Source of the DNA: Herbaspirillum seropedicae
Lineage (GTDB): Bacteria; Pseudomonadota; Gammaproteobacteria; Burkholderiales; Burkholderiaceae_D
NCBI RefSeq assembly: GCF_001040945.1
Contig: NZ_CP011930.1
Span: 4,893,021-4,957,020, forward strand
Direction of reading: 5' to 3'
Length of the DNA: 64,000 bases
Notes under the pieces: model-generated
Database searches by the model: none
The model's input: the letters and a program-made list of their open reading frames with translations, nothing else
Told to the model about the DNA's origin: nothing
Program-made: the position numbers and the translations under genes
Part shown: piece after piece, positions 35,989-51,841 of the stretch
Layout of the letters: each line of letters opens with the position of its first letter
Numbering within the stretch: position 1 is the stretch's first letter

Positions 35989-36975
35989 ATGAAGATCGCC
36001 ATCCTCGACGACTACCAGGACGCAGTGCGTCACCTCGATTGCTTCCGCCTGCTCGACGGCCACGACGTCAAGGTATTCAACAACACCATCCGCGGCGTCG
36101 GCCAGCTGGCGGCGCGGCTGTCGCCCTTCGACGCCGTGGTGCTGATCCGCGAACGCACTGCCCTGACCCGTCCCTTGCTGGAAAAGCTGCCGTTGCTCAA
36201 GCTGGTGTCGCAGACCGGCAAGGTCAGCGGCCATGTCGACGTGGCCGCCTGCACCGAGCGCGGCATCGCCATCGTCGAAGGCGTGGGTGACCCGACGGCG
36301 CCGGCCGAGCTGACCTGGGCGCTGATCATGGCGGCCATGCGGCGCGTGCCGCAATACTGCAGCGCCCTGCGCGCCGGCGCCTGGCAACAGGTCTCGCCCA
36401 CGCCCCACCACAACCTGATCGGCACGGCGCTCAAGGGCCGCACGCTGGGCATCTGGGGCTATGGCAAGATCGGCCGGCTGGTGGCCGGCTATGGCCGGGC
36501 CTTTGGCATGCAGGTGCTGGTCTGGGGCCGTGACTCCAGCCGCGAGCAAGCCATCAAGGATGGCTACCAGGCCGCCGCCAGCAAGGAAGAATTCTTCGCC
36601 CAGGCCGACGTGCTGAGCCTGCATCTGCGGCTCAATGACGCCACCCGCGGCATCGTCAAGGCCAGCGACCTGGCGCGGATGAAAGCGACCGCCTGCTTCG
36701 TCAACACCAGCCGCGCCGAGCTGGTCGAGCCTGACGCGCTGGAAGCCGCGCTCATCGCAGGCCGCCCCGGCCTGGCTGCGCTGGACGTCTACGAGCGCGA
36801 ACCGCTGCCGGTGGAGTCTGCGCTATTGCAGATGGATAATGTGGTGGCTGCCCCGCACCTGGGCTATGTGGAGAAGGATGGCTATGAGCTGTACTTCCGC
36901 GCCGCCTTCCAGAACATCGTGGCCTACGCGGCCGGCGCGCCCACCCATGTCCTCAATCCTGAGGCTCTGGGGTGA
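35989..36975 (+). CDS. D-isomer-specific 2-hydroxyacid dehydrogenase
   Basis: This protein of about 328 residues has the two-domain D-2-hydroxyacid dehydrogenase fold. The NAD-binding GIWGYGKIGRLVAGY is at about residues 148-162. The catalytic Arg is in NTSRAELV, the Glu in YEREPLP, and the His in APHLGY. It resembles the SerA-like branch, but lacks the C-terminal ACT domain of full-length 3-phosphoglycerate dehydrogenase, so the substrate is open. The ATG at 35989 follows GGAG; an upstream reading from 35842 is low-complexity. Its 3' end overlaps the convergent neighbour by 23 bases. Confidence 0.9.
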   Translation: MKIAILDDYQDAVRHLDCFRLLDGHDVKVFNNTIRGVGQLAARLSPFDAVVLIRERTALTRPLLEKLPLLKLVSQTGKVSGHVDVAACTERGIAIVEGVGDPTAPAELTWALIMAAMRRVPQYCSALRAGAWQQVSPTPHHNLIGTALKGRTLGIWGYGKIGRLVAGYGRAFGMQVLVWGRDSSREQAIKDGYQAAASKEEFFAQADVLSLHLRLNDATRGIVKASDLARMKATACFVNTSRAELVEPDALEAALIAGRPGLAALDVYEREPLPVESALLQMDNVVAAPHLGYVEKDGYELYFRAAFQNIVAYAAGAPTHVLNPEALG

Positions 36976-37717
36976 TGCGGTGGATGGTGCGCACAGGCGG
37001 GTTGTAGGCCTGCTGGGGCATCGGCCCCGCGCCCTTCCACAGTTGCCGCCATCCGGGCGGCCAGGGTAATGGCGGCCCGGCATAGTCAGGCACATTGCGC
37101 CGCACCGGGATCACCGGCAGGTGCTCCGGCATGGCGCCGTTGTAGTGCCAGCCCAGGCTGAAGGCATAGTCGGGCAGCAGCGTGGCGCAGACCAGCTCGA
37201 ACCAGTTGGCGTGCTCCTGGTCTTCGCCCAGCGCCTGCGCCAGTCCCTGCGGATCGAACTGCGCCAGCAGACGCGCCAGCTCCTGCGGCGACGAGGAAGG
37301 CACATCGCCCCAGCCCATGACCGGATTGAAGTTGTAGTCCGCTCCCGAGCCATACCAGCCCTCGCGCCATGGGCGCTCAATCCAGTTGCGCGGACCGCCG
37401 AAGAGATGCCAGCGCCAGTGCAGTCCGGACGGTTTGGGCCAACTGTACAGGTAAAGTTTCTGGTAACCGGCCCGGTGCAGCTCGCGCACCATCTCCATCA
37501 GGCGTGCATGCGGCATGCGATCAGGTGGCGTGCGACGGAACAGGATGGGTGTACCGTCGGCGTGCTGGACTTCATCCGAGGACAGGTTCAGGTCCAGGGT
37601 GCGCACTTCGCTGCCGAAGCGCGCAGAAATCCATCCCGTCAACAAGTTGACGAGCACGATCACGCCATAGCCGCGATGACGATGAAAGATGACGGTGCCG
37701 GGTGCCAGTGGTTTCAT
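36953..37717 (-). CDS. Unrecognised conserved protein, aromatic-rich
   Basis: This protein of about 254 residues has no signal peptide or membrane segment. I do not recognise a family. The first 50 residues (GTVIFHRHRGYGVIV, then WISARFGSEVRTLDL) look like a small beta-barrel of the SH3/CarD-N type: a GxVxFHxxxGxG turn followed by a strand ending in FG. The rest is unusually rich in Trp, Pro and Tyr (WPKPSGLHWRWHLFGGPRNW; LPWPPGWRQLWKGAG). The ATG at 37717 begins the most sensible frame. Its last 23 bases overlap the end of the dehydrogenase gene. The upstream gap leads to the Cache-CheW gene. Confidence 0.6.
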   Translation of the reverse strand: MKPLAPGTVIFHRHRGYGVIVLVNLLTGWISARFGSEVRTLDLNLSSDEVQHADGTPILFRRTPPDRMPHARLMEMVRELHRAGYQKLYLYSWPKPSGLHWRWHLFGGPRNWIERPWREGWYGSGADYNFNPVMGWGDVPSSSPQELARLLAQFDPQGLAQALGEDQEHANWFELVCATLLPDYAFSLGWHYNGAMPEHLPVIPVRRNVPDYAGPPLPWPPGWRQLWKGAGPMPQQAYNPPVRTIHRITPEPQD

Positions 37718-37937
37718 ATGCGCACCATTATAAGCGGCCCGATGAAATTGCATTTCCCGCCCCGGGAACAGCTCGTGGTATGACCAGTTACCCCACTGCA
37801 ATCGATACGCACCGAATTGTTCCCTGACTGGTCAGCCCCCCTGCCCCTCCGCCAAGCTCCCGGCACCGAAATAGTATAAAAATTTAGTCTGCCGACCACC
37901 CGACAGAGAATCATTCGCCGCAAAGGCTTGCGCACAC

Positions 37938-38062: not shown

Positions 38063-40702
38063 ATGACCACGCACAACGCCACAGACAAAGACAGAATCCT
38101 CCCCCCCGAAACCCATACCGAAACCTTCCTGCCCTACATGCGCGACGTTGCCCGCTGCGAACAGTCGCTCCAGGAGCTGAACCAGATGTGGCGCATCATC
38201 GAGGCCTCGGCCAAGATGAATTGCCCCGCCGAAGCCAAGAGCATCCTGCCGACCATGGCCGCCACCCGCTCCGGCTTCTCACGCCTGGAGCGGGAACTGG
38301 TCAGCAGTCTCGCCCACGAAAAGGTGCGCAACGTGCTGGCCGAGATCGGCACCAAGGCGCGCTACGTGATCGACATCGTGGTGCGCAACCTCTTCGAACG
38401 CACCGCCGATGTGGGCTTCCTGGCGACCGACCGGGAACTGTGCAACTTCGTGGCCGGCCTCACCGACTCGGTGGAAGCCACGCGTTATCGCCTGCGCGAG
38501 TATCGCAACAAGTACACCGTCTATGACGAGATCATCCTGCTCGATACCGAGGGCAACGTGCTGGTGCAGATCGACCCGACCACGCCCCTGGAACACAGCG
38601 CCGATCCGCTGATCCGGCAAACCCTGGAGTCCGACACGTATGTCGAGACCTTCCGCGCCACCGACCTGCGGCCGGCCAAGGAACGTGCGCTGGTGTATTC
38701 GCGCCGCATGCACCATCCCCAAACTGGTGCAGTCATTGGCGTGCTCTGCCTGTGCTTCCACTTCGAAGAGGAGATGGCCGGCATCTTCGCCGCCCACGGC
38801 GATCCGCAAGGGCGCAGCAACATGTTGCTGCTCGATGGCGAGAACCGCGTCATTGCCAGCGCCGATGCGCTATGGATCCCGCCCGGCAGCGAGGTCCCGG
38901 TCAACATCGATGGCCAGCCGCGCCTGATGATGCACAGCGGCCGCCAGTATCTGGTGCGCACCTTCGCTTCGGAAGGCTACCAGGGCTATCCCGGCCCGAC
39001 CGGCTGGCAGGGGCAGGTGATGATCCCGGTGGACGTGGCCTTCAACGACAGCGCCAGCGACACCCTTTCGCAACTCGCTCCCGAGGTCGCCGAAGGACTG
39101 CTTGCGCACGCGCACTCCTTCTGTCCGCCTCTGCACGACATCATGACCGCCGCCAAGACCATCCAGCGCATCGTCTGGAATGGCCAGGTCATGACCGCCG
39201 GCCAGCGTGGTGAAATGATCAAGCTCAAGACCATCCTCGACCAGATCAGCGAGACCGGCAATCGCAGCAACGAACTGTTCGCGCAGTCGATCCACGATCT
39301 CTACCAGACCGTACTGGTGTCGAGCATGCGCGATGCCGAGTTCACCACCAGCCTGATGGTGGACCTGCTGGATCGCAATCTCTACGAACGCTCCGATGAC
39401 TGCCGCTGGTGGGCGCTCACGCCGGAGCTGCGCAGCATGCTGGCGCAAGACCAGGTCAGCGCCGATGACAGCGCCAAGATCAGCAGCATCCTGGCCGCCA
39501 TCAACAGGCTCTATACGGTCTATACGCGCCTCTTTGTCTATGACCGCCACGGCCGCATCGTGGCCAGCACCGGCGATGCGCTGGAGAGCGTGCTTGGCAG
39601 CCACATCGATCAGACCACACTGGAGGCGGTCAGCACGCTGCGCAGCGCGCAGCAATACCATGTCAGCCCGTTCGGCCCAAGCAATTTGTATGACGGCCGT
39701 CACACCTACATCTATCACGCCGCCATCCGCGCGCTGGACCAGGATGCAGTGGTGGGCGGCATTGGCATCGTCTTCGATGCTGAACCGGAATTGCGCAACA
39801 TGCTGGTCGCGGGCCTGTCGGGCAAGCAGCGCATGAGCGCCTTCTATGTCAGCCGTGATGGGCGCATCCTGTCCAGCACCGACGCCGCCCGTCCGGTCGG
39901 GGGCACTCTGGAGATCGATGCGACCATGCTGCAACTGGACCATGGCGCGCACCGCTCCGGCGTCACCTTGCATGACGGTCAGTACGCCATCGTCGCCACC
40001 AGCGCCTCCAGCGGTTACCGCGAATTCAAGACCAGTGATGGCTATCAGGAAGACGTGATTGCCGTGGTGTTCCAATGCTTCGGTGCGATCAACGAAGGCG
40101 GTACGTCCAACAGCAGCAGCGCCTTCCAGCTGGAACAGGACGTCGCCGTGAACCGCAACGGCGAGGATCTCGAATACGCCACCTTCTTCTCCGACCACAG
40201 TCTCTTTGCCATCGCCGCAGTTCACGTGATGGAAGCGGTTCCCTATAGCGAGGTACTGCCCACCTCCATGGGCAGCCGCCCCGAACAGATCGGCATACTG
40301 GGACTGGAGCGCGAGGGCCAGCACCGCGACTTCATCTGGGTCTTCGACCTGGGCTTCCTGATCCGTGGCACCCGCTCGGCCATCACCAGCAGCAGCCAGG
40401 TCATGATCGTGCAGCATGGTGCGCACACCATCGGCCTGCTGGCCGATGAACTGCACGCCGTGCCGCAATTCGGCCAGGCCCAGATCATCCATACGCCCTT
40501 TGCACTGCAAGGGGAATCCATGCTGGTCTCGCACGTGATCAAGGCCAATGGCGGCCAGCTGCTGATCCAGGCCATTGCAGTCGATCGGCTGTTTGCCTGG
40601 GTGGTCGATGGCAGCGTGCCTCACGCCAACGCACTGGAACTGGTGCCGCAAGACACTGGGGCTGCACCGCCCCCGCAGGTGGAGGCCCTGCTGGCCGCCT
40701 GA
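38063..40702 (+). CDS. Soluble tandem Cache-like / CheW chemotaxis-type signalling protein
   Basis: This protein of about 879 residues has no membrane segment or signal peptide. Residues about 25-108 are helical. Two long similar units follow. Unit 1 (about 108-325) and unit 2 (about 438-670) each begin with NL(F/Y)ER(T/S)xD. Each then has YTVY with a Cache-like strand (ILLDTEGNVLVQ / FVYDRHGRIVAST), a second such strand (LLLDGENRVIASAD / FYVSRDGRILSSTD) and a closing GYxxY/F motif. Residues about 700-850 are a CheW domain (EYATFFSDHSLFAIAAVHV, then GLLADELHAVPQF). CheW domains dock to CheA and receptors. I infer a cytosolic sensor-scaffold. ATG 38063 follows GAGGG. Confidence 0.8.
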   Translation: MTTHNATDKDRILPPETHTETFLPYMRDVARCEQSLQELNQMWRIIEASAKMNCPAEAKSILPTMAATRSGFSRLERELVSSLAHEKVRNVLAEIGTKARYVIDIVVRNLFERTADVGFLATDRELCNFVAGLTDSVEATRYRLREYRNKYTVYDEIILLDTEGNVLVQIDPTTPLEHSADPLIRQTLESDTYVETFRATDLRPAKERALVYSRRMHHPQTGAVIGVLCLCFHFEEEMAGIFAAHGDPQGRSNMLLLDGENRVIASADALWIPPGSEVPVNIDGQPRLMMHSGRQYLVRTFASEGYQGYPGPTGWQGQVMIPVDVAFNDSASDTLSQLAPEVAEGLLAHAHSFCPPLHDIMTAAKTIQRIVWNGQVMTAGQRGEMIKLKTILDQISETGNRSNELFAQSIHDLYQTVLVSSMRDAEFTTSLMVDLLDRNLYERSDDCRWWALTPELRSMLAQDQVSADDSAKISSILAAINRLYTVYTRLFVYDRHGRIVASTGDALESVLGSHIDQTTLEAVSTLRSAQQYHVSPFGPSNLYDGRHTYIYHAAIRALDQDAVVGGIGIVFDAEPELRNMLVAGLSGKQRMSAFYVSRDGRILSSTDAARPVGGTLEIDATMLQLDHGAHRSGVTLHDGQYAIVATSASSGYREFKTSDGYQEDVIAVVFQCFGAINEGGTSNSSSAFQLEQDVAVNRNGEDLEYATFFSDHSLFAIAAVHVMEAVPYSEVLPTSMGSRPEQIGILGLEREGQHRDFIWVFDLGFLIRGTRSAITSSSQVMIVQHGAHTIGLLADELHAVPQFGQAQIIHTPFALQGESMLVSHVIKANGGQLLIQAIAVDRLFAWVVDGSVPHANALELVPQDTGAAPPPQVEALLAA

Positions 40703-40784: not shown

Positions 40785-41270
40785 ATGAGCCTGCGCATCA
40801 TCGCCACCGGCGGCACCTTCGACAAGCACTACGACGAAATCGCAGGGCAGCTTGGCTTTGGCGAAAGCCACCTGCCCGACGTCATCGCCCGCGCCCGTAT
40901 TACCGCGGAGGTATCCCTGGAAATCCTGCCCCTGCTCGATTCGCTGGAAATGCAGGACGGCGATCGCCAGCGCGTGCTCGCCGCCTGCCAGGCCTCGTCA
41001 CAGCAAGCCATCGTCATCGTCCACGGCACCGACACCATGCAGCAGACCGCCCAGGTGCTGGGCCAGGCGTTGACCGGCAAGACCGTGGTGCTGACCGGTG
41101 CGATGATCCCTTATGAAATCGCCAACTCGGATGCGCTGTTCAACTTCGGCTTCGCCTGTGGCGTGGCGCAGGTCTTGCCTGCGGGCGTCTATGTGGCGAT
41201 GAATGGACGCATCTTTGCCTGGAACAAGGTCGCCAAGAACCGCAGCGCGGGCGTGTTCGAGCCGCTCTGA
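40785..41270 (+). CDS. Half-size asparaginase-domain protein
   Basis: This 161-residue protein corresponds to the N-terminal domain of L-asparaginase. The nucleophile loop ATGGTFDK (Thr at about 9 or 11) and HGTDTM (Thr/Asp pair at about 81-84) are intact, as is the GAMIPYEIANSDALFNFG segment. Full-length asparaginases are about 330 residues; the second domain is absent and no frame continues it before the LysR gene. I recall short versions like this as established stand-alone families in betaproteobacteria, so it is probably not a truncation. Whether it hydrolyses asparagine is untested. A TAAGAT -10-like box is at 40743. Confidence 0.82.
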   Translation: MSLRIIATGGTFDKHYDEIAGQLGFGESHLPDVIARARITAEVSLEILPLLDSLEMQDGDRQRVLAACQASSQQAIVIVHGTDTMQQTAQVLGQALTGKTVVLTGAMIPYEIANSDALFNFGFACGVAQVLPAGVYVAMNGRIFAWNKVAKNRSAGVFEPL

Positions 41271-46160: not shown

Positions 46161-46497
46161 TTACCCCGCTGTATCCATCCGTTTGATCGTCATTGCTTCA
46201 CAACGGGTGGGCTGCCACTCGACACTGCCAAAATAATTTGGCGGAAAAAATAGAAGTTCTTCCATTGAGAAAGCGCCTCGTGCATCGGAGACTGTCGCCT
46301 TCGTCGCCCGAGGCTTCTGCTGCACCGATGAACTCAAAGGCATTGGCCGCATCCGGGGCTTCCTCCTTCAAGCCGGGCACGCGCACTTCGCAAGAAGTCC
46401 TGCGCTTTTCTCCTGTTTGTTCACTGGCATGGTCCGGACTGCGCGAATTCTCTCTGGAAGCCGCATCGCATGCCCTCCCCCTCGCCGAATGATTCAC
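46161..46497 (-). pseudogene. Possible frameshifted remnant beside vgrG
   Basis: The 345-base gap between rep and vgrG contains two overlapping minus-strand frames that read as one protein if a single frameshift is assumed near 46340. One (from 46497) carries CEVRVPGLKEEAPDAANAFEF. The other (to 46161) carries KATVSDARGAFSMEELLFFPP and GSVEWQPTRCEAMTIKR. The second resembles the ending of a carboxypeptidase-regulatory-like domain. It is too short and broken to be functional. This is inference from reading style only. Confidence 0.25.
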
Positions 46498-49130
46498 GAC
46501 GCTCCCAAGCGCGCATCACGCAGCATCGCCGGCTGCTCCAGCTGGACTCGTCACTCGGGCCAGATATCCTGCTGCCACAACGGCTCGTCGCCACCGAGCG
46601 ACTCAATGACGGCTACGAAGTCACCATCGATCTGCTGGCCACGCACACCGGTATCGCGTTGGAGCAGTTGATTGCGCAGCCAGTCACTCTGTGGATCAGG
46701 CAGCATGACGGCGACACCCTCCCCCTGCATGGCTACGTGCATACCGCAAAGCGCCTGGGCAGTGACGGCGAGCTCGATTTCTGCCAGCTCTCGCTTTCTC
46801 CGTGGCTGCATTTCCTGCGCTTTCGCAAAGACGCGCGGATCTGGCAGGACAAGAGGACCGAGGACATTCTCGCCGACGTCTTCAACAACCATCCGCAAGC
46901 GCGTGGCCATTACCGTTTCCAGTTGGAGCGCCCTTATACGCCCCGACCCTATTGCACCCAGTACGAAACCGACTGGCATTTCGTCCAGCGCCTGATGGAA
47001 GAAGAAGGCTGGTTCGCCCATCACGAGCAGCGGGAAGATGGCAGCGGCCATGTTCTGGTCATCACCGACAATACGTGGAACCTGCCCGGCTTGCCGCAGC
47101 AAGGAATTGCCTTCCACGGTGCGGCCCCTCGCGACGAACTCGACAAGATCCTGCATTGGAGCGCAAGCCGCACGCTCTCCTCCAAAGGGTGGCGGGGCCG
47201 CAGCGACGACTACAAATCGCCCGGCATGAAGAAAGAGGCCGAAGAACAGGTGATGCCCGAATACGGCCAGCTTCCCGCACAGCTGGAGATGTATGAGTAC
47301 ACCGGCGCCTACAGTTTCAGGCTGCAGGAACAGGGCAATCGCCAGGCCGACCTGCAAGTGGAACAGTGGGAGTCTTCCATGCAGCGCTACTCTGCCGTCT
47401 CTGGCGTGCGCAATCTGGCGTGCGGGCGCTGGTTCAGGCTGGAAGAACATCCCCAGCATCGGGCAGAGCCCGACAGGGAACGCCAGTTCGTCATCCTGGC
47501 CATCGACTGGTTCGTCGAGAACAACCTTCCCCTGTCACATCAGGCGCTGGATTTTCCGGGCAGCCTGAAAGGCGCGCTGATGGCCTTCAAGGAGTCAATC
47601 CGGCGCGAACGGCAGGTTGCCGAGACGGACAACGAGCACACGGGCCATTGCTTCAATCGCTTCGAAGTACAGCGCCGCAAGCTGCCGTTTCGCCCTGCGC
47701 GGGCGCATGCCAGGCCGGTCATGCTGCCGCAGACGGCCATCGTCGTGGGGCCTGCCAGTGAAGAGGTCTATACCGATCACCTCGATCGCATCAAGGTCCA
47801 GTTCCGCTGGGACCGGATCAATCCCGGCAACGAGGCGGCGTCCTGCTGGGTGCGTGTGAGCTATCCCAATGCGGGCCAGTACTGGGGCGCCATCCAGGTG
47901 CCGCGCATCGGGCAGGAAGTCATTGTCTCCTTCCTTAATGGCGACCCGGATCGCCCGGTCGTGACAGGACGCTTGTTCAATGCGGAACAGCGTCCGCAGT
48001 GGCATACCAACGGGCGGCTCTCGGGTGTGAAGTCCAAGGAATTCGGCGGTACCGGCTTCAACCAGATGGTGATGGACGACACCCCTGAGCAGAACCGGAT
48101 TCATCTCTACAGCACCAATACCCATGCGCAATTGAATCTCGGGCATCTGGTCAGCCAGACGGGCAATGAGCGTCGCAGCTTCTTTGGCAGCGGCTTCGCG
48201 CTCAGCACCGATGCCTACGGCGCCATCGTCACACACAAGGGCTTGTACATCAGCACCTATGGAAGGCCAGGCGCACAGGGAACGCAACTCGATGCCCGCG
48301 AGGCTACCGGCCAGTTGAAGTCCGGCGCCAACCTCAGCCGGACCCTGTCGGAGACGGCAGCGAAAGCTGGTGCAGAACCCTTGGCAGGGCAGGAAGCATT
48401 GCGCGATTTCATCGATGCCACGCAGGCAGATTACGAGGATCCGTCGCAGGCGCAGGCCAATCGTTTCCAGCAGGCCATTCTGCTGGCGGCCTCGCCGGAC
48501 GGCATCGGCCTGACGACACCCAAAGGCGTGCATACGCATGCTGGTGGCGAGATTACGTTGTCATCGGGAGCGGATACCAGCATCGCTGTCGGCAAAAGCC
48601 TGCTGGCCAGCGTGGCCGAGAAGATCAGCCTGTTCGCCTTCAAGGCCGGGATCAAGCTGTTTTCCGCCAAGGGCAAGGTGGAGGTGCAGGCGCAGAGCGA
48701 CGATCTGGAACTGATTGCCGAGAAGGTGGCGCGGCTGCTGTCGGCGAGCGGGCGGGTGGAGATTCGCGCCAAAGAAGAAGTGCTCATTACGGCAGGAGGC
48801 TCCTTCATCCGGCTCAACGCATCGGGAATCACACAAGGGACATCAGGAGCATGGGAGGCCAAGGCGGGTACCCATGCAATGCCGGGCCCCACAACCTTGG
48901 CCTACGAAATGAACAAGTCGTCGGCAGCACTGCCATTCGACGAAGAGTTCGTCCTGAGGTGGCCGTATGACCAATCTCCTGTCAAGAACAGGCGCTTTGA
49001 AATCGTCCGCGGCGATGGTACCAAAGTACGCGGCGTGACCGACGCACAAGGTAAGACCGGCCTGCAGAAAAGCCTGTTCGTCGAGAACACTTCCCTGCGC
49101 ATCCTTCCAGAAGGACAACCTCCATCATGA
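46470..49130 (+). CDS. vgrG: Type VI secretion spike protein VgrG
   Basis: This 886-residue TssI spike has gp27/gp44-like N-terminal modules (residues about 20-400). The gp5-like OB-fold with FRWDRINPGNEAASCWVRVSYPNAG is at about 440-470 and the conserved GQEVIVSFLNGDPDRPVVTGRLFN at about 485-508. A beta-helix and a DUF2345 region follow (about 650-800). The last 60-70 residues form a further small domain (FEIVRGDGTKVRGVTDAQG) typical of cargo-adaptor tails. It trimerises at the tip of the T6SS tube. It is the first gene of a cargo cluster, and its stop overlaps the next ATG (ATGA). No core T6SS genes are in this window. Confidence 0.93.
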   Translation: MPSPSPNDSRRSQARITQHRRLLQLDSSLGPDILLPQRLVATERLNDGYEVTIDLLATHTGIALEQLIAQPVTLWIRQHDGDTLPLHGYVHTAKRLGSDGELDFCQLSLSPWLHFLRFRKDARIWQDKRTEDILADVFNNHPQARGHYRFQLERPYTPRPYCTQYETDWHFVQRLMEEEGWFAHHEQREDGSGHVLVITDNTWNLPGLPQQGIAFHGAAPRDELDKILHWSASRTLSSKGWRGRSDDYKSPGMKKEAEEQVMPEYGQLPAQLEMYEYTGAYSFRLQEQGNRQADLQVEQWESSMQRYSAVSGVRNLACGRWFRLEEHPQHRAEPDRERQFVILAIDWFVENNLPLSHQALDFPGSLKGALMAFKESIRRERQVAETDNEHTGHCFNRFEVQRRKLPFRPARAHARPVMLPQTAIVVGPASEEVYTDHLDRIKVQFRWDRINPGNEAASCWVRVSYPNAGQYWGAIQVPRIGQEVIVSFLNGDPDRPVVTGRLFNAEQRPQWHTNGRLSGVKSKEFGGTGFNQMVMDDTPEQNRIHLYSTNTHAQLNLGHLVSQTGNERRSFFGSGFALSTDAYGAIVTHKGLYISTYGRPGAQGTQLDAREATGQLKSGANLSRTLSETAAKAGAEPLAGQEALRDFIDATQADYEDPSQAQANRFQQAILLAASPDGIGLTTPKGVHTHAGGEITLSSGADTSIAVGKSLLASVAEKISLFAFKAGIKLFSAKGKVEVQAQSDDLELIAEKVARLLSASGRVEIRAKEEVLITAGGSFIRLNASGITQGTSGAWEAKAGTHAMPGPTTLAYEMNKSSAALPFDEEFVLRWPYDQSPVKNRRFEIVRGDGTKVRGVTDAQGKTGLQKSLFVENTSLRILPEGQPPS

Positions 49131-50731
49131 GCAAAAACAAGAGTGAACGCTTGCTGACAGCGACCTTTGACAAGAAGGGCAATCCTGAATGGAAGTCCAC
49201 GCTCAGCAGTCCTGATGACTCCTATGCGGTCTGCCACATGATTCCGGATCGTGTCATTCCGGTGATCTTTGTGCCGGGTGTGATGGGTAGTAATTTGAAG
49301 GGGATTGGAGACGCGGACGGGGTTCGGTGGCGGCTGGATAGTGAATTCTCCATGTTGATGTGGCTCACTAGAGGACCTGCCAAGCGAAAGCGATATTTGA
49401 CCCCTAAAAAGATGGTTGTTGACGACGATGGAACAAGACCTAGCGGGACAGCCCAACATGGAGAGGAACTGAAACGGCGCGGCTGGGGCGAAGTCGGGGC
49501 AATGAGCTACGGTGACTTTCTGGTCTGGCTTGAGAACGCATTGAACGATTTCACCAATACCAAAGGCGGCCATCGCGATTTGCTGATCGGTAGAACATTG
49601 GGGTCAATGAAAAGCGACGAAGCCCTGCTAAAGGCAGAGGTCGCACTCAGCTACCGTTATCGATTCCCTGTACATGCATTTGGCTACAACTGGCTGGACA
49701 GCAATGATGCATCAGCCAAGCAGTTACGTGAGCGAATCAACAGTGTAATCGCACGATACAAGAAGGAGAAAAAGCGCTGCGAGAAAGTGATTCTGGTGAC
49801 CCACTCCATGGGCGGACTTGTGGCGCGCTATTGCTCGGAAGTACTCGGCATGTCGGACAAGATCCTGGGCATCGTCCACGGTGTCATGCCCGCTATCGGT
49901 GCAGCCGCTGTCTATCGACGATTCAAATCGGGAACGGAAGGCGGATGGCTGGCGACCAAAGTATTGGGAGAAGATGCGGCGGAAATGACTGCGGTGTTAT
50001 CCAGTGCACCAGGCCCATTACAGTTGCTGCCAACACCGGAATACGGAAATGGCTGGCTCAGGATTGATGGTGGAAGCACTGTGGTCAGTTTGCCGCGCAA
50101 TAACGACCCCTACTACGAGATCTACACTGTCCGTGGGCGATGGTGGAGCATGTGCGAGGACCATCTGATCACTCCTCGCACAACGATGCTCTCAGCAAGC
50201 CAGAAGCGAGAAATTGATGCCGACTGGGCTGACTTTTCTGACGTCATCAATAGCAAAGTCAAGACATTTCATCAGGAAATCACCGGGGAGTACCACCCTA
50301 ACACTTATGCATTTTTCGGCAGTGATCGTCACTTCAAGGCTTATGGAACGGTGCAGTGGCGAACAACTTTCCAGTCACCCAGACGTCCGCCTATCCCGCG
50401 ACCGAATAAAGATGTATTCGATGCCAAACTAAACTTCTACGGTGAATTGGGAGAAACAAGGACCGCACTTTACCCTCACGGAATGAGCGCAGGACAGATA
50501 GCACCTAACGAAGTATTTCGAATCAGCGAGCCCGACGAAGACGGTGACGGCACGGTTCCTCATCGTTCTGGCATTGCGCCCAAAGAACATCCTGGCATGA
50601 AATCGCTGCTTCGCATTTCAGTTGGGCATGAGTCTGCTTATAAAGATTCAGACATCGCCAGAGAATTTACTCTTCGCGCCATCGTTCAGATCGTCCAGGC
50701 GGTTAAAGGCACAACGCTCGACTACGAATAA
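49127..50731 (+). CDS. T6SS lipase-type effector (Tle-like, alpha/beta hydrolase)
   Basis: This protein of about 534 residues has an alpha/beta hydrolase core. The oxyanion-hole motif is VPGVMGSNL (about 49-57). The nucleophile Ser227 is in THSMGG, in which the usual first Gly of GxSxG is Thr. The likely acid is in DEDGDGT (about Asp474) and the His in GHESAY (about His501). The fold resembles LCAT/PGAP1-type lipases used as phospholipase effectors. There is no signal peptide; delivery is by the VgrG upstream, with which translation is coupled. The gene is AT-rich compared with its neighbours, which suggests horizontal transfer. The target lipid is not known. Confidence 0.82.
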   Translation: MSKNKSERLLTATFDKKGNPEWKSTLSSPDDSYAVCHMIPDRVIPVIFVPGVMGSNLKGIGDADGVRWRLDSEFSMLMWLTRGPAKRKRYLTPKKMVVDDDGTRPSGTAQHGEELKRRGWGEVGAMSYGDFLVWLENALNDFTNTKGGHRDLLIGRTLGSMKSDEALLKAEVALSYRYRFPVHAFGYNWLDSNDASAKQLRERINSVIARYKKEKKRCEKVILVTHSMGGLVARYCSEVLGMSDKILGIVHGVMPAIGAAAVYRRFKSGTEGGWLATKVLGEDAAEMTAVLSSAPGPLQLLPTPEYGNGWLRIDGGSTVVSLPRNNDPYYEIYTVRGRWWSMCEDHLITPRTTMLSASQKREIDADWADFSDVINSKVKTFHQEITGEYHPNTYAFFGSDRHFKAYGTVQWRTTFQSPRRPPIPRPNKDVFDAKLNFYGELGETRTALYPHGMSAGQIAPNEVFRISEPDEDGDGTVPHRSGIAPKEHPGMKSLLRISVGHESAYKDSDIAREFTLRAIVQIVQAVKGTTLDYE

Positions 50732-50737
50732 AAATTT

Positions 50738-51841
50738 ATGAGAAATAAATATCTTGTCTCAACTGGCGTATTACTCGCTTTGATTCTATCTGCTTTTTTT
50801 TTATACCACCGTGGAACCCCAGAGCTCACCGCGAAGGAAACTCAGAAAATGAACGCGATTACCGAAAAAATGATTCCGAGATGTTTTGGACGCTATCTGA
50901 TTGACTTGCCGGAAAGCTTCGTTCTCAACACCGAGGGGGGGCAAGAAATCGACGGGGTCACCATTGATATCAAAGCGCAGTCAGAAACGGAATTCCAACG
51001 GGCGCTGGAGGCAAGAAAGAGAGTGCTTGAGTCGGAAACCCTTCTCGTCGAACCCAGGACTGCAACGCTAAAGGAAATAGTTGCACTACCCAATCGACGT
51101 GGTGTCATTTTTAATCGCGCCGAAAGCGAATTCAATAACGTCTTCCGTATCCTCGAACTCATGGATTGGCGTGATGGCTATCAGATCAAGATGAAAATTG
51201 ATGCGCGAGACAGGCATTATTCCAAGGAGAAACTTCCCGCTGGAACTGTGATAAGTACCGTCCCCGAAAGAATGGCCACCCTGCTCAAGGTCTACCACCG
51301 CACCCGCCCCCGCGGCAACGAAATCCCTTCTGGCCAAGGCATCTGCATCCTCAATGGCTTTGTCGAGGGCCCCGCTTCAAGCGCCGAAAGCATCCGGTTC
51401 TTCTATCATCTGAACGAGGTCGACGATGTGTATTTCACGCTAGCGACCTTATCCGGCCCACGCGACGCCGATACGCTGCTGGACCGGATGAAATTCCTTG
51501 CGCCCATCTGGAAGACGGACGGTGGACGCCTCATCAGAAGCGGCAGGATCTACCGCGAGCTCCCCGGACAAGAGGTGCTTTATATGGCCCCGGATGAACA
51601 TACCAAGATTCCTGCACTCGAATTCCGCTACGAAGATACACGCCGGGGAGATGGCGCCACCAATCCTTCGATCGAGGTGGGAATGAATGTAGGCACGCGC
51701 AAACCCGAACCTGATCCCGAGGATCCCGACGAACATGCTTATCCGCCGCCCATCTTCACCCCCAGCCTGAGCGAAGCCGAAGCCATCCACCTGTGGGACA
51801 AGGTCCTTCCGACGCTACGCACACGCCCCGGCGCCTTCTGA
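50738..51841 (+). CDS. T6SS immunity protein, Tli4-like
   Basis: This 367-residue protein has one N-terminal membrane segment (about residues 6-24) and a large periplasmic part, so it guards the periplasm against the adjacent lipase. The sequence FGRYLIDLPESF and the later FFYHLNEVDDVYFTLATL recall Tli4-type immunity proteins, though I assign it mainly by position. It starts 6 bases after the effector stop with no visible Shine-Dalgarno, suggesting coupling. Base composition changes inside the gene: the 5' half is AT-rich like the effector, the 3' half (from about 51250) is GC-rich like the chromosome. Confidence 0.78.
   Translation: MRNKYLVSTGVLLALILSAFFLYHRGTPELTAKETQKMNAITEKMIPRCFGRYLIDLPESFVLNTEGGQEIDGVTIDIKAQSETEFQRALEARKRVLESETLLVEPRTATLKEIVALPNRRGVIFNRAESEFNNVFRILELMDWRDGYQIKMKIDARDRHYSKEKLPAGTVISTVPERMATLLKVYHRTRPRGNEIPSGQGICILNGFVEGPASSAESIRFFYHLNEVDDVYFTLATLSGPRDADTLLDRMKFLAPIWKTDGGRLIRSGRIYRELPGQEVLYMAPDEHTKIPALEFRYEDTRRGDGATNPSIEVGMNVGTRKPEPDPEDPDEHAYPPPIFTPSLSEAEAIHLWDKVLPTLRTRPGAF

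Follow-up and report, generated by a model that had tools for sequence, protein, structure and literature searches.

The window analyzed here, a 64,000-nucleotide stretch of the Herbaspirillum seropedicae genome, encodes at positions 38063..40702 an 879-residue protein (P0001) that joins two double Cache (dCache) units to a C-terminal CheW domain and belongs to a large, old family of dCache-dCache-CheW proteins. We put at roughly one half the probability that this protein is a cytosolic sensor-adaptor of a chemosensory array, docked on CheA through its CheW domain and sensing an intracellular ligand, by which an internal chemical signal may be fed into the control of swimming.

Domain Organization and Predicted Fold

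The gene, its parts, and the two flanking genes are arranged as follows.

36953..37801, minus strand: divergent upstream neighbor, no Pfam match at E<=0.01
38063..40702, plus strand: gene of the dCache-dCache-CheW protein, 879 aa (open frame, conserved homologues)
38141..38350, plus strand: predicted helical hairpin preceding Cache unit 1, residues 27-96 (AlphaFold2 helices 27-53 and 62-121)
38351..39028, plus strand: dCache unit 1, residues 97-322 (Pfam dCache_1 at 148-272; element order as in unit 2)
39125..39289, plus strand: predicted helical hairpin preceding Cache unit 2, residues 355-409 (AlphaFold2 helices 355-378 and 385-450)
39290..40087, plus strand: dCache unit 2, residues 410-675
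40163..40609, plus strand: CheW domain, residues 701-849
40785..41270, plus strand: asparaginase-type protein of 161 aa with just the N-terminal domain, 82 bp beyond the gene (Pfam PF00710, E=6.4e-27)

The reading frame, present as a single copy in the one-contig, 5.5-Mb genome, has a third-position GC of 0.83 and is conserved at the protein level across homologues. Pfam places CheW at residues 705-844 (32.7 bits, cut-off 23.5) and detects dCache_1 in two stretches with 42.2 bits (E=9.2e-11), below the 45-bit cut-off that the relatives L195 (54.7 bits) and L111 (52.2 bits) exceed; no further Pfam domain appears at E<=1, and the absence of methyl-accepting (MCPsignal) and kinase domains claimed in an earlier note on this DNA is borne out at that threshold. 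The protein matched no NCBIfam family, and a single-sequence search of the PDB gave no match. Its two halves are alike (BLASTP E=1e-14, 23% identity), and the motifs that had been assigned to both units are all found in place: NLFER at 109 and NLYER at 439, YTVY at 151 and 484, and the closing GYQGY at 305 and GYREF at 651. Among the matches listed, [NS]L[FY]ER occurs in exactly two copies in 240 of the 241 proteins P0001-P0241.

The AlphaFold2 model (pLDDT 85.7) gives each unit a helical hairpin and a complete dCache, with the elements running in identical order in units 1 and 2, and then a CheW fold at the C-terminal end; the predicted structure has the dCache fold known from DctB, PctA, and Tlp3. 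A non-Cache fold, which the earlier note had named as one result that would overturn its claim, was not obtained, dCache topology being predicted twice, and the CheW fold that it expected near the C-terminus is retained. Pfam, the BLASTP of the halves, and AlphaFold2 thus agree with the proposed Cache-Cache-CheW layout with an internal duplication. The term "Cache-Cache" is right as to two Cache units but understates them, since each is really a double Cache preceded by a two-helix hairpin, so that there are four Cache lobes in all.

Among the extracellular sensors of bacteria, Cache domains are a major class, and an extracytoplasmic location is usual for dCache_1 domains; the 879-residue protein departs from it. 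Its hydropathy over 19 residues peaks at 1.45, inside a Cache strand, compared with 2.48 and 2.53 for two membrane proteins used as controls, and by this measure it has neither a membrane segment nor a hydrophobic N-terminus; the claimed lack of a membrane segment therefore stands, a hidden one having been sought by hydropathy and none found. Hydropathy exceeds 1.6 in 88 of 241 homologues, and the five peaks that were located all lie in Cache or CheW strands.

Family, Age, and Soluble Relatives

A protein search with P0001 returned 1876 matches at E<=1e-3 and one with a profile built from five distant members returned 5022; these are counts of all matches, whether true double-unit proteins or not (7997 candidates scored in each search, the best 120 inspected of 1876 and of 5022). 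The sources among the matches listed include Herbaspirillum, which supplies the nearest named relatives, Noviherbaspirillum, Curvibacter, Rhodoferax, Methylobacillus, Rhodocyclus, and Bosea. Within the taxonomic family of the host, 89 of 294 genomes matched, and leaving out G144, G256, and G276 as other proteins gives 86 of 294 genomes with the gene, a number that includes fragments at contig ends or copies with a stop. Internal stops are flagged in L116:6915-9527, where unit 1 and unit 2 plus CheW are split into two adjacent ORFs, in G120, and in the second copy in G292. In a sample of the phylum, the sensor region was matched in 35 of 398 genomes, with 6 two-unit, 27 single-unit, and 2 other cases as judged by frame length and match extent.

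A tree of 60 Cache sequences resolves into three groups, namely the unit 1s (support 100/99), the unit 2s (100/99), and the single units (86/78). Because the two kinds of unit form separate clades, the two-unit architecture is older than the sampled diversity, and a repeated origin is unnecessary. Conservation across the family is uneven: most of the invariant residues sit in the Cache units, and conservation is visibly lower in the CheW domain.

The closest relatives outside the double-unit family are soluble receptors of about 340-440 residues (starts called by script) with an N-terminal MCP signaling tip and one dCache. Hydropathy above 1.6 occurs in 4 of the 120 listed, with peaks in the Cache, and no membrane segment is found; MCPsignal scores above its cut-off in all five that were scanned, and the single-unit profile matches tips from CheA-CheW complexes (4jpb, 3ur1). 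Like the protein described here, these chemoreceptors (for example, P0250 of Azospirillum and P0281 of Bradyrhizobium) are soluble, carry NLYER..DVRWW, YTVY, and the closing GY, and have helices ahead of the Cache, but they have one unit, an intact MCPsignal tip, and no CheW domain. Those of the 120 listed whose source is named come from genera of the Alphaproteobacteria. Such tip-dCache mini-chemoreceptors (L177-L206, e.g., L180:7189-8235) make up a large soluble family, annotated variously as methyl-accepting chemotaxis, chemotaxis, or hypothetical proteins.

CheW Domain and Co-occurrence with CheA

In CheW, Arg62 pairs with Glu38 (PMC3828127), and Ortega et al. report that R62A CheW binds receptors and CheA with about normal affinity while chemotaxis is impaired (PMC3828127). 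With the equivalents of these E. coli residues assigned by motif (the NLRG position for Arg), we compared 83 members of the family with the other CheW-type segments that the family profile picks out in this genome (16 in number, 13 distinct). The Glu38-equivalent is retained in 75 of the 83 members, a Val two positions before it in 73, and one Gly in all 83, whereas the Arg62-equivalent is present in only 5 of 83, as against 12 of the 13 distinct other CheW-type domains. P0001 itself has no Arg at this position of the alignment and does not possess the Arg62-Glu38 pair. With the Arg62-equivalent missing in 78 of 83 members, the domain is probably no ordinary CheW; the near-normal affinity of R62A, taken together with a kept Glu38 and a lost Arg62, makes it likely that it acts as a docked but non-standard adaptor. 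The genome also holds a 519-residue frame with three CheW domains (G000:C1:1924384-1925829), and a CheA frame of 872 residues lies some 5 kb away from it.

The CheA dimerization domain is found in 261 of the 294 family genomes, including all 89 that match the protein. A strong CheA match (best E<=1e-9, a cut-off chosen after the list had been seen, and counted by hand) occurs in 84 of 86 genomes with the gene versus 162 of 208 without it (Fisher p=7e-6, uncorrected for kinship). Only G068 and G090 depart from this; both are drafts, and the sole CheA-like frame in each, of 1863-1873 residues, matches weakly. The gene has lost about 40 residues and its frame in G068 and runs past the contig end in G090, so that G068, a single case among draft genomes, gives no more than a hint of gene decay where CheA is absent. 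The CheW profile, the predicted fold, and the co-occurrence with CheA lend indirect support to docking on a CheA array.

Genomic Neighborhood and a Possible c-di-GMP Link

In 22 of 80 related loci an asparaginase-domain gene follows directly, and the divergent upstream neighbor recurs in 23 of 80; further genes nearby in the window encode a LysR regulator and a PF03601 protein. None of the 12 window ORFs scanned (30.3-51.8 kb, 10 with Pfam matches) belongs to a chemotaxis or c-di-GMP family, and the nearest genes being of other kinds, a c-di-GMP link is not visible at this locus. At 46470-51841 on the plus strand lies a Type VI secretion module; it comprises VgrG, a lipase-like protein that matches PGAP1/LCAT, and an immunity protein of the Tli4 type.

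Across the related loci, with gene calls made by script, GGDEF/EAL genes occupy 24 of the 156 immediately adjacent positions (22 of 80 loci), as compared with 12 of the 923 that lie at least three genes off (p=4e-13); the 22 loci are not independent, ten of them being Methylotenera or Methylophilaceae records. At least three types of neighbor can be told apart. One is a GAF-GGDEF-EAL gene in tandem upstream, which in L044 and L046 overlaps the dCache-dCache-CheW gene by a few bases; another is a PAS-PAS-GGDEF-EAL gene, which in Methylotenera is divergent; and the third comprises EAL-bearing ORFs. The GAF-GGDEF-EAL partner was not found in the genome studied here, the same query matching in 37 of the 294 family genomes. 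At E<=1e-50 it is present in 26 of these; 14 lack the dCache-dCache-CheW gene and 12 have it, the two genes adjoining in 8 of those 12 (positions compared by hand). A fixed operon is accordingly rejected, adjacency being limited to 8 of 12 genomes, the dCache-dCache-CheW gene being absent from 14 of 26, and the partner not having been found here. In six loci (L018:12577-13089, L077:12610-13158, and four more), mostly from Noviherbaspirillum, a small ORF has a four-base overlap with the gene's 3' end; one of the two such ORFs scanned has a weak Rrf2 match below cut-off.

Relation to Known Systems

CheV is, like the present protein, a non-canonical protein built on CheW, but it carries a receiver domain and no dCache. 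P0001 also differs from the MCPs in having no MCPsignal domain, and from the membrane sensors DctB, PctA, and Tlp3, with which it shares the dCache fold, in that theirs are extracytoplasmic parts of receptors. The nearest precedent is CheWS of Treponema denticola, a CheW fused to a CheR-like S-adenosylmethionine (SAM) sensor for which ligand and array anchoring are reported (Muok et al., PMC10653840). Both proteins join a soluble CheW domain to a soluble sensory domain for an intracellular molecule, the sensing being predicted in our case; the sensor of CheWS is C-terminal and CheR-like, whereas ours is N-terminal and consists of two dCaches. A dCache inside the cell has likewise been described in Actinobacteria, where the stand-alone dCache_1AM, termed a rare example, is of the amine type, encoded with a transcription factor, and not fused to CheW (PMC10104139). 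As for the c-di-GMP side, the place and effect of the Pch phosphodiesterase of Pseudomonas aeruginosa are reported to depend on CheA (PMC3861689).

The view that this layout has no described function therefore needs qualifying, a CheW-fused cytosolic sensor and intracellular dCaches having been published; it holds for the exact arrangement, in that no description of dCache-dCache-CheW was found in open-license PMC papers, supplements lying outside the search. Fig. S10 of PMC10653840, whose main text uses the word "Cache" 0 times, presents 30 undescribed CheW architectures, which may include this one. What is known already is the CheW-fused sensor; what is new is the two internal dCaches, the kinship to soluble mini-receptors, and the missing Arg62.

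With regard to the ligand, the motif of amino acid-binding dCaches (dCache_1AA) includes R126-x-W128-Y129 (PMC10104139). R-x-W-Y occurs in none of the matches listed, whether double-unit (0 of 241) or single-unit (0 of 120), and an amino acid-type ligand is unsupported with this part of the motif missing throughout. A cytosolic receptor for formaldehyde taxis, MtpA, is reported from Methylobacterium (PMC10613068).

Proposed Mechanism and Alternatives

In the mechanism that we propose, the C-terminal CheW domain would dock into CheA-P5/CheW rings, and the two cytoplasm-facing dCaches would bind an intracellular small molecule, the binding being relayed via the helical hairpins and the CheW domain to alter CheA output. 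With the Glu38-equivalent kept and Arg62 lost, the protein could enter the array without the ordinary coupling of receptor and kinase and thereby modulate it, and in some lineages a partnership with a neighboring c-di-GMP enzyme might tune array output and c-di-GMP jointly. Docking, ligand binding, the direction of the effect, and the c-di-GMP link are what we infer from the CheW profile and fold, the dCache folds without a membrane segment, the co-occurrence with CheA, the GGDEF/EAL adjacency, the Glu38/Arg62 pattern with the R62A affinity, the MCP tip of the single-unit relatives, and the CheWS and Pch precedents. Against the sensor-adaptor reading stand the lack of R-x-W-Y, the lower conservation of CheW, the absence of chemotaxis and c-di-GMP genes among the 12 window ORFs, the non-independence of the adjacent loci, and a GAF-GGDEF-EAL partner that was not found here and occurs without the gene in 14 of 26 genomes.

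A divergent CheW domain from which the Arg62-equivalent is mostly gone could also be a remnant or a general binding module, in which case the protein would work mainly outside arrays, regulating a c-di-GMP enzyme or another partner in a ligand-dependent manner. The repeated adjacency to at least three GGDEF/EAL types, with overlap in L044 and L046, fits such a role, but we regard it as unlikely in view of the co-occurrence with CheA, of a GGDEF/EAL neighbor in only 22 of 80 loci, and of the GAF type without the gene in 14 of 26 genomes. The structural adaptor, whose Cache domains would be past ligand binding and which would shape or cap arrays, seems to us the least probable of the alternatives: the Arg62 change and the absence of a recognized ligand motif (R-x-W-Y alone having been looked for) agree with it, whereas the concentration of invariant residues in the Cache units, such as ER..DCRWW of unit 2, suggests a kept pocket.

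Between these two in probability, and doubtful in our estimation, lies a single-chain soluble chemoreceptor, with the hairpins as diverged tips packed as a pseudo-dimer and the fused CheW replacing a separate one. The hairpin before each dCache does occupy the place of the chemoreceptor tip in the single-unit relatives, to which whole-unit profiles match with E=4e-33 (unit 1) and 2.6e-47 (unit 2). However, the profile similarity of the hairpins alone to tips has a probability of 0.1%, P0001 has no Pfam MCPsignal, and in a heptad-block shuffle test unit 1 lies about 2 sd above the shuffles, one or more of which score higher, and unit 2 about 0.7 sd above. On this profile probability, and on a shuffle test that gives unit 1 weak support and unit 2 none, the hairpins are rejected as proven MCP tips. 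The model of the single-unit P0250 has one helix at 3-127 (DSSP), a result compatible with a hairpin in that part or with none.

Significance

Under the sensor-adaptor reading, a family with two internal Caches and an array adaptor offers a clear test of how internal state might be conveyed to chemotaxis in the absence of a transmembrane receptor. Its CheW domains without Arg62 form a natural set with which to probe the proposed alignment of receptor and kinase sites by Arg62, and the family suggests that chemotaxis arrays and c-di-GMP turnover are repeatedly linked. A bolder and rather improbable extension is that the protein is an internal chemoreceptor, an ancient tip-dCache tandem turned single-chain pseudo-dimer with its own modified CheW, which as a non-activating, ligand-gated subunit of the CheA lattice would report on cytoplasmic metabolism and bring a c-di-GMP enzyme to the array; if true, internal signals would have a widespread path of their own around methylated receptors.
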